Origin: Erinaceus europaeus
Lineage: Eukaryota > Chordata > Mammalia > Eulipotyphla > Erinaceidae
Assembly: GCF_950295315.1 (NCBI RefSeq)
Contig: NC_080165.1
Location: 6,698,417 to 6,762,416 of the forward strand
DNA length: 64,000 nucleotides
Reading direction: 5' to 3'
Below the pieces are notes generated by a model, which was not told the DNA's origin, did not search any database, and saw nothing but the letters and a program-made list of their open reading frames with translations. The number at the start of each line of letters is the position of its first letter. Positions within the stretch are counted from its first letter, which is position 1. The position numbers were made by a program, and so were the translations under genes. Below are positions 8,060-63,806 of the stretch, one piece after another.

Positions 8060-8290
8060 TTTAAAAAAATATTTTATTAGTGATTTAATACTGATGAACA
8101 AAATTGTAAGATAACGGGAATATAATTCCACACAGTTGCCACCACCAGAGTTCTGTGTCCGACCTCCTCCCCTGACAGCTTTCCTGTTCTTTATCCCTCT
8201 GGGAGCATGGACCCAGGGTCATTGTGCGGTGCAGACGGTGGAAGGTCTGGCATCTGTAATTGCTTCTCTGCTGGACGTGGACACTGGCGT
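8060..8290 (-). mobile_element. LINE-B 3' end
   Basis: Minus-strand copy: TTTTATTAGTGATTTAATAC at its poly(A) side, then the family phrases CCACCACCAGAGTTCTGTG, CCCTGACAGCTTTCCTGTTC and GGACCCAGGGTCATTGTG. Confidence 0.75.
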
Positions 8291-25844: not shown

Positions 25845-26376
25845 TGCATATCAGAGGTCAGGCTCAGGAAAAAACTAGTATAGTCATGGGCCCTTTGGAA
25901 TATAACTGAAATAGGCCTACCAGCTATCTTCAAAATGGAGACCCCCCAAATCTTCATCTGCACTACTCCAGCCTTTAGGTTCACGAGTAATCAACAACTT
26001 GTTTGGCTTTCTACGTTTATTCGTCTTTCAGTGATGCCAACCAGACTTCCCTGGACAGACAACCCCACCAATGCGTCCTGAAGCCCCATTTCTCCAGAGC
26101 CCTGCCCCACTAGGGAAAGAGAGAGGCAGACTGGGAGTATGGATCGACCAGTCAACGCCCATGTTCAGCGGGGAAGCAATTACAGAAGCCAGACCTTCCA
26201 CCTTCTGCATCCCACAATGACCCTGGGTCCATGCTCCCAGAGGGTTAAAGAATAGGAAAGCTGTCAGGGGAGGGGATGGGATACGGAGTTCTGGTGGTCA
26301 GAATTGTGTGGAGTTGTACCCCTCTTATCCTATGGTTTTTGTCAGTGTTTCCTTTTTATAAATAAAAATTTAAAAA
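25845..26376 (+). mobile_element. LINE-B 3' end, longest sense copy
   Basis: GGGCCCTTTGGAATATAACTG, AAAATGGAGACCCCCC, GAGCCCTGCCCCACTAGG, CAGACCTTCCACCTTCTGC, CTATGGTTTTTGTCAGTG, then TTTTTATAAATAAAAATTT. Sense orientation, with the A-rich tail at the right. No long open frame is conserved between copies. Confidence 0.8.
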
Positions 26377-26624
26377 AGAAATAGAACCGATAAAATGGGG
26401 CAGAGGAGGGGGTTACGGATGGTTATGTTGCAAGGGTGAATGCAGGAGAGTATGAACATACCTTGGGATTTTCAGACTGGTGGCCCATAAAATGCAGTAG
26501 CACAGTCGTCCTAGATTTCAGCCTGACAAGAATGCAGGCACTTTCTCTGGCACATATTAAGGTGAGGTTCCCAGAAGAGATCTAGTTGAGTGTACAGCAG
26601 CAGGGGCATGGGTCTGCTGTCAGT

Positions 26625-35225: not shown

Positions 35226-35640
35226 GATTGGGGAGACAGCTTAATGGTTACGGAAAAGAATGTAATGCCTGAGGCTCAGAGATCCCAGGTTCCATCCCCA
35301 GTGCCACCGTTAACCAGAGCTGAGCAGTTCTCCTTCTCTCTGTCTTTCTCTCCCCCTCCCTCTCTCCCTCTCTGTATCTTTCTCCCTCTCTCTTTTTTCT
35401 CTCCCTCCCTCTCCCTCTCTTTTATCTATCTCTCTCCCTCACTCTGTCTCCCTCTCTTTCTCTCTCTCTCCTTCTCTCTCTTTCTCTCTCTTTCTCTATC
35501 TCTCTCCCTCTCTCCCTCCCTCTCTCTCCCTCTCTTTCTCTCTCTTTCGCCATCTCTCCCTCTCTTTGTGTCTCTCCTTCCCTCCCTCTCCCTTTTCCTC
35601 TCTCCCTCCTTCCTCTCTCCCTCTCTCTCTCTGTTAAATT
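35226..35640 (+). repeat. SINE-D with expanded CT-rich body
   Basis: GGGGAGACAGCTTAATGG, TGCCTGAGGCTCAGAGATCC and GGTTCCATCCCCAGTG are the tRNA-like head. Then about 300 bases of CTCTCC/CTTTCT-type repeat replace the usual 40-base pyrimidine body. Confidence 0.7.
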
Positions 35641-55868: not shown

Positions 55869-57212
55869 AAATTCTCTAACTACATTACTAATCTTATTTA
55901 TTTACCCATGCCCTTTTTTTCACTTGAATTTGAATGTTTTTATTGTTAAGAAGCTTCTTAAGTTTGTCAGTCTTTTTTTAAACCCTTCCAACTCCAGAAA
56001 TATTTCAAGCCGTCTTGATTAAGTTTACCCATTCTAAAGTGATCAAGATAATAATTTAAGAGAACAATTTAATGTTGTTCTTATTACCTATGCACCATAT
56101 TTTATTTCAGAGATCACTGCTTATTTTAATACTAGTTCTGTGTTATATTTAAAATGTCCAAGTTTTAAGTTTCATTTTTATCAGAAGGATCGTTTATTTT
56201 CAACTAATTTATAGTGTAAAAGACCCTAATTCTATCTTTTAAAAAATCATTTATATCCTCTGTTGCAAATAACTGAAATTTTATTCAGGTTAGTAAAAAT
56301 GCACGTTTGGGTATTTAAAAGGAGTCTTTTAATTTGAGAGCGGATGATGGGTTTCGTCTGTGACTTGTAAGTGTTGAGATCGTTGCTGTCAGTGAGGACT
56401 GAGTAGGGTTGGGTCTCAAGGGAATAGAAACTATCTGGGGTTGCTCTCAGGAGTAGCAGGAGATGAGTCAGTTTTGCCACAATACCTGCCACAAAAGGGC
56501 AGCTTAAGTTCATTGGCAGGAACTTGCAGTCATTGCTCAGCCAGTTTAGCCTTAAAAGATGGTGGGTACTGATGAAGGCCAAGGAGTGACTGATTCAAAG
56601 GTGTTGTTAGTCCTGGGTTTGGTCTGGGCTCTCTCCATGCTGAAGAAATGCCGAAAGAGGCTGGATGTCTCATGTTCCAGATGATGGAGGAAAGAACAGA
56701 TTGAGTCTTAATCGAGGTCCAGAAGGTGCAAGGATGAGAAGTTCTAAATCAGTGAAAGAGTTTTCAGATGAGAAACTTGAGGCAGAAAGACATTTTGAGT
56801 CGCAGTGACTGAGGTATGGCTACCTCCAGGGGGTAACTGGAGTGGATCATAGAGGGCTGGAAAGGTGAGCACACTCCCCCCCCCCCCCAGGGCATTGCTC
56901 AGCTCTGGCGTCTGGGATTGAGCAAAGTGAACTAGCATTTAGAAAATCATCAGTTCTGTCTCTACACATGCCAGGTGGTAGCTTGATAATAGTCAAGTAG
57001 CAGTGAAAGGACACTAAAGAAGCACACTGGGTTTAGGAAAGAAGACCAAGGTTTAAAAGGAAAAAAAAATGTGAGCCTTTGTTCTTGACCTTTGTAAAGA
57101 AGAGATTACAGAGCTCTTAACACTGAAGATGATGAGGACTTCTTGTTATCATCAGAATTCACTAAAGAGGAAAGGTTAGGGGCGTAGTTAGAAACCAAGT
57201 GCATGGGGCTGT

Positions 57213-57359
57213 CTTCTTCTAGCGTTTGCCCTTCTTCCGTAGCCAGTCAACAGTGTCAGGTTGAGCCTGATGTAAAGTTTCGAGACCTCCTTTGAATGTG
57301 GAGAGGTGGCAGTCATTGACTATGTGGGTCGTAGTCTGTCTGGAGCCGCAGGGGCTGTT
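57213..57359 (-). mobile_element. Jockey-type LINE, 147-bp 3' fragment with target-site duplication
   Basis: Minus-strand 3' end of the same element as at 60303. Read on the minus strand it encodes CGSRQTTTHIVNDC, then GGLETLHQAQPDTVDWLRKK and GKR with a stop, followed directly by AAGAAG. CATGGGGCTGT flanks it at 57202-57212 and 57360-57370. It is 5' truncated, as is usual for target-primed reverse transcription. The codon at the site of the premature TGA in the longer copy is TTA (Leu) here. Confidence 0.88.
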
Positions 57360-60149
57360 CATGGGGCTGTGCTTCTAAATAAATCAAAGGACTTAGAATT
57401 CATGAGGGTGGGGAAAGGAAGTCAACAGAGAGGAACCCTGTCTGATGAGGGAGAGTGGCCCAGTCTAAGTCAGGAAAACACAAAAAAGGGAAAGGCAGTA
57501 GGATTACCTGTTCGTAATACAGATATCAGGAATTGCAAATAAAAGAAGTAAGTGGCTTTAGAAGCTTTTAGCTTGGGGAAAAAGAGACTGGATACTTGCA
57601 AAATTGCTTCCTATTTGAAAGCAGATACAAGTATATTCTTCCCAACTAAAATATAGGGAAATAAACTAAAATTGTATTGCTAGAAGACTGACAATAGCCC
57701 CTTTTTGCTTTCAAAATGTGGGCTAGAATCCTTGAAGAATTCTCTGCATGCAAGCCAGCTTTGGACTATTGATAGTTTGCACTGGCAGTTTTGCTTAAAA
57801 AATAGAATGACAGGAAACGAATAACTGGATGGAAAGCTTTAGCAGAACTTAACAAGATTTTTAAAGCAGATGCAGTTGTAAGACAACAGGTTCAAGTATA
57901 TTCTTATCAGTTAAGCCATGGAGAAATCAATGACTATTTCACACTTGAAGTGTTTTTGGAAACAACCGAAGAATCGTGACTTTCTACTAAAGGAAAAAAA
58001 AATCTATTTATTTTTATTTAACAGTGAAATCTATCTTTTCTTTGCAAGATAGATGTTGTTCACAAGAAACAAAGAAAAAAATGGCAAAAGAAAAAAAATT
58101 AAATAGCTGCTTTGTCCATTGTTTCCCCACTTTAGCCAGTGTCCTTATGTCAATGAGACTATAAAATGCAGATATAAGAATGCTGATTCTTTTTCTCTCT
58201 ACACTGAGTTAATGTAATTTGTTTTTGGCATTGTTGCTTCTTCAGATGAGACTTGTGATATCTGCCAGTATGTTAAAAATGCAGTATCGTTGCTATTTTC
58301 CTGACCTCAGCATTCTGAAGTAGTTTTCAGTTCTTATTTACCTTACACTGTGTCCCCAGTAGTTGGATGCATTTTGACTGTCTCAGTTTTTAAGGTGAAG
58401 AAATTTGGACAAGATGCATTTTTATCACTTAGTCACAATCCATAATCCCTTGGTGATTTTGTTAATTCTATTGTTTAATGTATGCATCTGTTTATGTATG
58501 GATTAGTAAGAGCAGAGAAGGAGAGAACCTGAGCCTTACTCTGGTACACATGATGCCAGGGATCAAAGACAGGATTTTATGCCTAAGAATCCAAAGCTTA
58601 ACGCACTGTACCATTTCCCAAGATGATAATTCTTTTTTTTTAATTTCACATTTTTTTCCCATGAAAGCTGGAGTCTTTGAGTTTATCCTCCTGCTTTCTT
58701 TGTACTCAATAGAATTTAGTGTGTCTGAATTTGAAATTAGTTGTAATGAGTGAAATTTTCATAAAAACTCAGAGTTTGTTTTGCAATTCTAAAAAGACTG
58801 TAGACAGATTCTGTTCTAAAGAATGTTCCTGCCACAGGAGGTGGTGGTGGGGGGGGTTTGGACACTTGTACCTCTTGCTGAGAGGGAAGCTCTTGCTTCT
58901 TCAATTGGAATGTTTGTAGTTTTGAATGCTAGAAACAGTAATATTTAATTATTCTCCTAGTTTCATTTGACTTTCCTCTTTCATGTAGGACTGACTCTTT
59001 AAAATTTCACTTTCTCTAGGAGTTAAAAATGGTGATGCTCTCACTGACCTTAGCAGTTAAATGAGCTGTCCCGGTCTGTGCCCTTGCTTCATCTACTGAG
59101 AGCTATAAGCTCCTGTTCTTTTATGGTTTTTCTTTCAACAATGAAAGAAAACCTGGCTTTCAAGAAATGCACATTTGAAATGTAAGATAATGTCTGCATT
59201 AATGAATGATTCCTTTAATTTCACATTCATGTTTGTCAATAGTAGTTGCTATGTGAAAGATCGAATTTAATCGGATTCTATTTATTATCGTGTGTGTGTG
59301 TGTGTGTTTAAACCAAACCCTTACACTAGAACTGTAAAATAGAGAAAATTACTTACTCTCATCAGGTGGAAAATTACATTTCACATCTATTCTTGGGGGG
59401 TAGTGGTGAGAAAATGGGCTTATTTTATTTTTCTTGCTCTGTCCCAACTCTAAAATTACAGTCTGCTAATCTGAAATTAATACCCAAATGCATTTCATTC
59501 ATTAAATAAATTTATGCTTTTAGATGATAACTACTGGTAGCAGTTTTCCCCCTCAACTTGTAAAGACTAATGAGGAGTTGACATGTGCTATTTCTGTGCA
59601 TGTCTATAGATAACAGTATTTGAGTATTCTCAGGAGCTCAAAGTTAATTTCAGAAGCTGCCGTGAGTATTTTGGACTGAGTGTGTGTTATTCATCTGTGG
59701 AGGAGAGAGGTGACAGAGTTTTGTTGGTTAATTGATTTTACTTTATTTGTGCTTGTTTTGTTTTATTTAGTTAAAGAATGTATAATGTGGAGTGAGAATA
59801 GTATTTCTATGATGTCTCAGTACCCCCAAGCAAGAGTTCATATTAAAACCCAGTAATACTCAGCTAAAACATTGCGTGTCGTGAAAGAAACCAGTGACGA
59901 AAGGCCATTAGATTTTGTAATCTGATTTAGAAGGAAGTCCAGCACAGATAAACATATAGAAACACTAAGTAGAATAGAATTTCCCAGTAGCTGCCGGTAG
60001 GGAATGGGAGAAGAGAGGGGGCTTGCATTGCTAGGGTACAGGTTTCTGTTTCCTGTTTTTTAATATGTTGTCAGAATAAAGCCCAGTGCTTTCCCACAAG
60101 TGTGTTGCTGATTAGCTGGGTCCCAGACCCAATTTTTTTTCCACCCATT

Positions 60150-60302
60150 TTAGACTTTCAAAGGTCACAGACTCCAGGATGTTTCTAGCTCTACCCACTT
60201 CTGTGGCTAGGTGGAATGGGATATGGCTGTCTGGTGGTGAGGTGGGAATTGTATGAATTATACCCTTCTGATCCCACCATCTTGTCAATCATTATTAAAT
60301 CA
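60150..60302 (+). mobile_element. LINE-B 3' end abutting the jockey-type LINE
   Basis: GTGGGAATTGTATGAATTAT, CCCTTCTGATCCCACCATC and TTGTCAATCATTATTAAATC match the last part of LINE-B in sense orientation. Confidence 0.65.
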
Positions 60303-61216
60303 CTTCTTCTTCTAGCGTTTGCCCTTCTTCCGTAGCCAGCCAACAGCGTCAGGTTGAGCCTGATGTCAAGTTTCGAGACCTCCTATGAATCTGGAGAGGT
60401 GGCAGTCGTTGACTATGTGGGTCATAGTCTGTCTGGAGCCGCAGGGGCAGTTCGGGTCGTCTCTGGCTCCCCAGTGATGGAACATAGCGGCGCACCGGCC
60501 ATGGCCTGTTCGATAGTGATTGAGGAGGGCCCAATCATAACATGCTAGGTCAAAGCTGGGTTGATGCTTGCAGGGGTCTGTGATGAGGTGTTTGTTCTTT
60601 ACCTCAGCTGACTGCCAGCTCTGTTTCCAAGAGTCTGGAACAGAGAAGTTCAGTGTAGGCGTAGGGGACCAGATTGGGTGACGAGACGTCAAGCGTTGGA
60701 CAGGGTGGGCGAAGATATCCGCGTATATTGGCAGGTCCGGTCGAGCGTAGACGTGGGAAATGAACTTAGATGATGCCGCATCCCGACGAATATCTGGCGG
60801 GGCGATGTTGCTAAGAACTGGCAGCCATGGAACCGGGGTGGAACGATGGTTCCAGAAATGATTCTCATGGAGGAATATAATTTGGAATCGACCAAGTGGA
60901 CATGGGGGCTACGGAACCATCCTGGGGCACAGTATTCTGCAGTGGAATAGCATAATGCCAGAGATGATGATCCTAGTGTGGAAGCGCTCGCGCCCCATGA
61001 GGAGCTGGCCAGTCTTGCAATGATGTGATTCCTCGCGCCCACCTTTGCTGCAGTTTTTATGAGATGTTTGTGAAATGACAGGGTGCGATCGAGAGTAACG
61101 CCAAGATAGACTGGCTGGGCTTCATGCCGGATTCTCGTACCGCCAAGCTGCACATTAAGCTCACACGAGGCCGAGGCATGGTGTAGATGGAAAACAGATG
61201 ATACCGTTTTTGCAGT
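60303..61216 (-). mobile_element. Jockey-type non-LTR retrotransposon, 3' part of the polymerase ORF, decayed
   Basis: About 910 bp on the minus strand. Minus-strand peptides begin KTVSSVFHLHHASASCELNV, pass PVYLGVTLDRTLSFHKHL, VGARNHIIARLASSSWGAS, LALCYSTAEYCAPGWFRS and RIISG (the region after the reverse transcriptase palm, ending in its thumb), then GHGRC, HHWGARDDPNCPCGSRQ and HIVNDC (a C-terminal Cys/His motif), to GGLET and a stop followed by AAGAAGAAG. One frameshift near 60690 and a TGA at 60366-60368 break the frame. The family is known to me from arthropods, cnidarians and other invertebrates, not from mammals. The 5' side ends in a TAA/TTA microsatellite at 61217-61245. It is CpG-rich compared with its surroundings. 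Confidence 0.88.
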
Positions 61217-61283
61217 AATAATAATAATAATAATAATAGTAATAAATAATAAAAAAGTTGAAACATAAGAAAAGGATAAAACT

Positions 61284-61540
61284 CCAGGAGTGGCGAAGCA
61301 GTGCTGCAGGCCCATCTCTCTCTCTCCCCCCACCTCCTACCACCCCCACCTCTCTCTTTTTCTTTCCCTCTCGCTCTTTGTCTCTCTCCTTCTCTTCCCC
61401 TCTCTGTGCCCTTCTCTTTCCATTTCTTGTTGTATCTTTCCTAGAAGGAAAAAAATAATAGATATGACCACCAGGAGCAGTGGATTGATCATGCACACTG
61501 AGTCCCAGCACTAACCCCAGGGGCAATTAAAAAAAATACA
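61284..61540 (+). repeat. SINE-A/B-like copy, long-form end, 5' truncated
   Basis: CAGGAGTGGCGAAGCAGTGC, an expanded CT-rich body, CACCAGGAGCAGTGGATTG and CCCAGGGGCAATTAAAAAAA. Confidence 0.7.
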
Positions 61541-61599
61541 ACAGTAAATCTCTAAATCTTGACTTGGGATTTAGTTGCCTTTTCCCTTCTTTCCTTTTC

Positions 61600-62105
61600 T
61601 TTTTTGTTATTTATTTATAAAATAAAATATATCAACAAGACCACAGGATATTGGGGGTACAATTCCACACAGTTCCCACCACCAGATCTCCATATCCCAC
61701 CCCCTCCCCTGACAGCTTTCCTATTCTTTATCCCTCTGGGAGTATGGACCCAGGGTCATTGTGGGATGCAGAAGGTGGAAGGTCTGGCTTCTGTCACTGC
61801 TTCCCCGCTGAACGTGGGCGTTGGCAGGTGGATCCACACTCCCAGCCTGTCTCTCTTTTTCCCTAGTGGGGCAGGGCTCTGGGGAGGTGAGGTTCCAGGA
61901 CACATTGGTGAGATCACCTGCCTAGGGAAGTCAGGTTGGTGTCATGGTAGCATCTGCATTAAGAAATAAAACAGAAAAAATTATTTAATAGTCAGGAACC
62001 TAAAGGAAAGAATATAGCAGATGAGTTTTGGGGTCTCCATTTTGGAAAAAAAAACTAGTAGGTCTATTTTAGGTCTATTCCAAGGGTCCCATGACTTTAC
62101 TAATT
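61600..62105 (-). mobile_element. LINE-B 3' end, long copy
   Basis: TTATTTATTTATAAAATAAAA tail side, CCCTGACAGCTTTCCTATTC, CACATTGGTGAGATCACCTG, TTTTGGGGTCTCCATTTTGG and CCATGACTTTACTAATTTTTG; co-linear with the copies at 25845 and 46885. Confidence 0.82.
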
Positions 62106-63669: not shown

Positions 63670-63806
63670 ACAACATCTGGGGAAGATGTTCGAGACTTCA
63701 CAAAAGTGTTAAAGAATAAGTTTAGATCAAAGAAGTACTTTGCCAAACACCCTCGGCTTGGCTACCTTCCTGTCCAGACAGTTCTTGAAGGCGACAACTT
63801 AGAGAC
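63670..63806 (+). CDS. UTRN: Utrophin exon, equivalent of dystrophin exon 70
   Basis: A 137-bp exon, acceptor TTTTTTTTTCACCTCACAG and donor GTAAGTTT. It reads [20 protein letters not shown], then [20 protein letters not shown] and GDNLE, ending two bases into Thr. It lies just after the ZZ finger and leads towards the syntrophin/dystrobrevin-binding C-terminus encoded beyond the window. [13 protein letters not shown] is the utrophin version of dystrophin RTKRYFAKHPRMG. Confidence 0.97.

Follow-up and report, generated by a model that had tools for sequence, protein, structure and literature searches.

Two copies of one retrotransposon lie about 3 kb apart in the window, by which we mean the whole 64-kb stretch of DNA that was analysed. 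The longer, copy 1, occupies approximately positions 60305-61216 of the minus strand, within a few bases of the limits first proposed for it (60303..61216). Copy 2 does not appear in the earlier note and was found by self-comparison of the window. To judge from its homologues, copy 1 is the C-terminal polymerase part of a non-LTR retrotransposon (LINE) of the I/Jockey group. Its limits and frames were read against P0236, a protein of 582 aa coded as an open frame on a public contig of 2,072 bases. The features referred to below are as follows.

60305..61216, minus strand: copy 1, a 5'-truncated LINE copy (3' part of the polymerase gene with a very short tail), delimited by its match to P0236 and, at the 3' limit, by copy 2
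60845..61213, minus strand: first open frame of copy 1, from the end of the RT region onward (LGVTLDRTLSF ... RIISGTI), agreeing with P0236 in 118 of 123 codons
60315..60842, minus strand: second open frame of copy 1, past the frameshift (... CPCGSRQTMTHIVNDC ... RKKGKR), agreeing with P0236 in 166 of 176 codons
60305..60311, minus strand: AAGAAGA 3' tail adjoining the stop codon, with a 3' UTR of nearly nil; identical in copy 2, the flanks diverging beyond it
60216..60304, plus strand: L1 3' end adjoining copy 1, 73-81% identical to four further L1 3' ends of the window
57212..57360, minus strand: copy 2, the final 149 bases of the same element, with a more severe 5' truncation and 94.6% identity to copy 1
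57203..57212, plus strand: target-site duplication (TSD) of copy 2, one side, ATGGGGCTGT, a perfect repeat of 57361-57370
57361..57370, plus strand: TSD of copy 2, other side, a perfect repeat of 57203-57212

Copy 1 is 912 bases long, with its 5' cut-off at about 61216. Two frames on the minus strand are separated by a frameshift at about 60843: the first runs through 123 codons from 61213 to 60845, and the second through 176 codons from 60842 to 60315, with one internal TGA. The true stop is a TAG on the same strand (60314-60312), followed by AAGAAGA (60311-60305). All of the LINE polymerase signature peptides that the earlier note had listed on the minus strand are present, including the Cys/His region CPCG...HIVNDC, after which the stop codon comes. 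Its count of one frameshift and one stop was likewise correct, and so was its description of the segment as CpG-rich, the observed/expected ratio being 0.55-1.05 in four 200-base bins (60401-61200) versus 0.284 in the whole window. A complete polymerase gene is contained in neither copy, and no hint of a role in the host was noticed.

The frames of copy 1 match residues 283-582 of P0236 with a tblastn E value of about 1e-152, and since both match one and the same 582-aa protein at this level, the match is not due to chance. Compared frame by frame, with the frameshift codon excluded, 284 of 299 codons are identical (95%); a simple alignment of the read-through translation gives 92% (271/293). 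In P0236, RVT_1 spans residues 79-322 (profile positions 2-204 of 205), and copy 1, which matches from residue 283, therefore begins in the last 40 residues of the RVT_1 match. RVT_1 was also found with Pfam in the relatives P0122, P0126, P0164 and P0240, the last of which (996 aa) carries the endonuclease families PF14529 and PF03372 ahead of it, and sub-threshold matches to zf-RVT were obtained in P0126 and P0164. An RNase H family was not detected at E≤0.1 in the two window peptides or in seven relatives (Pfam). Taken alone, the two window peptides matched no Pfam family at E≤0.1, and the class assignment of copy 1 therefore rests on its homologues. Residues 1-20 of P0236 correspond to the element's own antisense strand (window 60674-60733, plus strand; 17/20 identical), which suggests that the start of this protein is a 5' inversion (twin priming) or that the contig is chimeric.

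Three protein searches retrieved 127, 352 and 220 proteins at E≤0.001, of which the best 120 were listed in each case; the query that gave 127 consisted of most of the first frame and about 11 residues read beyond the frameshift. Among the matches listed, the protein identity of relatives besides P0236 does not exceed 70%, a value that covers part of the query, and is 53-55% where nearly the whole region is aligned. The top 15 relatives show 57.5-61.4% identity to P0236 itself. Given that no listed relative other than P0236 exceeds 70%, and this over part of the query, no recent donor is seen. Neither P0236 nor the C-terminal peptide found a relative in scans of viral contigs.

Copies 1 and 2 have exactly the same 3' end and different 5' truncation points. 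They differ at eight of their 149 shared bases (5.4%; K2P 0.056), a stretch too short to date the copies, and three of these eight differences are transitions of the CpG type. The young look that the earlier note had remarked on fits this distance and the 95% codon identity to P0236. The TSD of copy 2 is perfect over 9 bp, or up to 11 bp if bases that also belong to the element ends are included. Of 200000 random places in the window, 185 showed a 9-base repeat at the spacing of copy 2, with ends free by 2 bases. For copy 1 no TSD was found, the best candidates having 5/6 bases and lying within AT-rich tail sequence.

Copy 1 is a true host insertion. It lies at the 3' end of an L1 on the opposite strand, whose A-rich tail resumes at about 61217-61256 on the far side. 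The joined flanks of copy 1 can be aligned over the junction with L1 ends lying near 8060, 50640 and 52590; the left part of this alignment consists of AT-rich tail and counts for little. One L1 3' end is present in several copies in the window (61595-61939, 8110, 26037-26381, 46895, 50667, 52627 and 54045). In the self-comparison, from which one extra 24-base match was left out, these are 77-87% alike, and they offer a possible age yardstick for nested insertions. Beside the A-rich tail of the L1, a SINE-like sequence, presumably of a hedgehog SINE type, extends over 61280-61560 and apparently lacks the usual 5' part. A CT-rich tract at 35336-35604 gave many cross-matches to the pyrimidine tract of the SINE-like sequence nearby. 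Downstream of copy 1, at about 63670-63806, lies an exon of a gene that we take to be utrophin, the dystrophin paralogue. The peptide of this exon matches two dystrophin chains (PDB); of the utrophin setting originally claimed, with exons on both sides, it is this downstream part that was recovered.

Differing 5' truncations, a fixed 3' end, a near-nil 3' UTR and a TSD together form the pattern of target-primed reverse transcription (TPRT). The marks of this process were observed for copy 2, and membership of the same family suggests it for copy 1. The element RNA would have been reverse-transcribed by its own polymerase at a nick, which for copy 1 would have been placed within the intron, at the junction of the L1 3' end and its A-rich tail. 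An early stop of the cDNA would then have left 912 bases. Later drift may have introduced the frameshift, the stop and several Arg-to-Cys/His changes of the kind expected from CpG loss.

Phylogenetic placement was based on a tree of 136 rows, comprising two queries and 134 of 354 other proteins. Proteins were included if at least 80% of P0236 was covered or if they had an organism label, not every named match was given a label, and several short named matches of the search that gave 127 proteins were left out. Copy 1 and P0236 form a pair with an SH-aLRT of 100, on a long branch (0.52), inside a clade of 58 rows with an SH-aLRT of 97. Most rows have no organism label, and the host range of this clade is read from four labelled rows: two from Synaphobranchus (eel), one from Trachemys (turtle) and one from Latimeria (coelacanth). 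Labelled insect and pseudoscorpion rows fall outside the clade, as does one row from an Antarctic fish, which sits with little certainty on a long branch. An earlier tree, built from the C-terminal part alone (95 rows, the query and 94 of 235 proteins), recovered a clade of 50 rows (SH-aLRT 98) with the same two eel, turtle and coelacanth labels inside it; outside it lay two rows from Antarctic fish and one from a mantis shrimp. With Antarctic fish rows outside the clade, vertebrate hosts are not confined to it, and the split is not plainly one of vertebrates versus invertebrates.

The earlier note had regarded the element as one unusual for mammals, and this view is supported. An ordinary mammalian L1, L2, CR1 or RTE was set aside on the strength of the protein searches and trees, which show copy 1 to be close to one clade of I/Jockey-group proteins. 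The note's further proposal of an invertebrate, 'Jockey/Daphne-like' kinship is not supported as far as the labelled rows go, as the labelled arthropods lie outside the clade and the labelled rows within it are those of eel, turtle and coelacanth. Arthropod Jockey-like elements do belong to the broad group that includes copy 1, their labelled proteins being 41-53% identical to P0236 over the aligned stretches. However, their labelled rows fall beyond the supported clade that holds copy 1.

Copy 1 is very probably a dead, 5'-truncated genomic copy of the Vingi non-LTR retrotransposon of hedgehogs, an assignment made by description and not by comparison of letters. The name Vingi-1 would apply to it, the family presumably being Vingi-1_EE of Erinaceus europaeus. 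The host species is judged from the element itself and from SINE and L1 types that look like those of hedgehogs. Kojima, Kapitonov and Jurka (2011, MBE 28:17-20) reportedly wrote that Vingi is without RNase H and was not detected in the other mammalian genomes examined; they are said to have considered horizontal transfer to the hedgehog as implied, with vertical descent still possible. The lack of a C-terminal RNase H is what separates Vingi from Ingi. Other clades are also without RNase H, so this absence cannot single out Vingi. Papers that cite the description (Kojima et al.) present Vingi, in the parts available, as a clade related to Ingi and reported from hedgehogs in 2011. The accessible text of another paper of that year (PMC3183009) mentions 'likely horizontal transfers in mammals such as Vingi TEs in hedgehogs', calls them older, and records 311 copies of Vingi-1N3_EE at <1% divergence in Erinaceus europaeus. 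As far as these partial sources go, Vingi-1 resembles copy 1 in its hedgehog host, its recent activity with many copies, its suspected horizontal origin and the absence of any reported C-terminal RNase H, and no differing feature was found between the two, which were compared by description only. Relatives of Vingi-1 are reported from reptiles in the same partial sources, and the clade of copy 1 includes a turtle row; the turtle, eel and coelacanth labels thus fit a lineage reported from reptiles. Copy 1 is almost certainly an ordinary copy of an already known element, described in 2011, and not a new one.

Other published cases were compared as far as their texts were available. In the African hedgehog Atelerix albiventris, I-Jockey elements are reported at 4,476 copies and 2.232 Mb, with four consensus sequences, three of them de novo (PMC12026660, 2025, in part). 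Like copy 1, these have a hedgehog host, are multicopy and belong by name to the same LINE group, and they may well represent the same family; the word 'horizontal' does not appear in the main text of that paper, so far as it is accessible. RTE1_Sar of the common shrew is another eulipotyphlan LINE with an inferred horizontal transfer, as is suspected here, according to the part of PMC6542046 available. It differs in belonging to the RTE clade and in its nematode link, and hedgehog reads gave its authors no significant matches (same source, in part). In the available main text of a screen of 307 vertebrate genomes (PMC7070016), neither Vingi nor hedgehog is mentioned.

Three other readings of copy 1 and its family were weighed against horizontally acquired Vingi. 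Copy 1 might derive from an I/Jockey-group family of this host that is distinct from Vingi-1 and has yet to be described, likewise a recent entrant. The long branch of 0.52 leading to copy 1 and P0236 leaves some space for such a family, as do the four I-Jockey consensus sequences, three of them de novo, in the available text of PMC12026660 and the fact that Vingi-1 and copy 1 were matched by description, not by letters. Nevertheless, this reading has to assume that hedgehogs carry yet another young LINE family of foreign origin from the same group, and the literature, in the parts available, names Vingi as a hedgehog family of this kind; we consider an undescribed family quite unlikely. A foreign contig piece or assembly contamination, suggested by GC and CpG values above those of the surroundings, is scarcely credible. 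Two copies with host flanks occur in the 64-kb window, copy 2 inside a clean TSD and copy 1 at a host L1 3' end. The second copy and the host flanks led us to reject contamination, and the earlier note had been right to regard a foreign contig piece as the less likely case.

The remaining alternative concerns how the Vingi family came to be in hedgehogs. It would have arrived in the hedgehog line by horizontal transfer, a sensible hypothesis when the earlier note raised it and one in agreement with the published view (PMC3183009, as partly available). Nothing that came up in the searches made here, which had other aims, points to the parasite vector that the note had thought of. Alternatively, Vingi was inherited vertically in mammals, lost elsewhere and has remained active in hedgehogs, without horizontal transfer. 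A human repeat, X12_LINE, is entered as a trace of Vingi in the accessible part of PMC5753468, which gives room for an old vertical presence in mammals, and all four labelled rows in the clade of copy 1 are vertebrates. However, with copies that differ by 5.4% and a copy 1 that is 95% codon-identical to P0236, activity looks recent. One 2011 paper, in its available text, regards the transfer as likely to be horizontal (PMC3183009). No other mammal occurs among the named proteins in the best 120 of 127, 352 and 220 matches, a weak argument, as dead copies are rarely annotated. Vertical descent is on this evidence improbable, more probable all the same than an undescribed family; the estimate concerns the origin of the family and overlaps with the Vingi identity of copy 1, so that the likelihoods given here do not sum to one.

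For horizontally acquired Vingi, the contig that codes for P0236 is the sole lead found here toward a donor. There is a very small chance that this contig comes not from the hedgehog but from an animal associated with it, for instance a tick, a flea or a worm, in which case it would mark a recent exchange partner of Vingi. The probable horizontal transfer of Vingi into hedgehogs is a point already made in 2011, in the available text of PMC3183009. What copy 1 confirms is that a LINE lineage unusual for mammals has spread in this genome, apparently recently, intron sites included.
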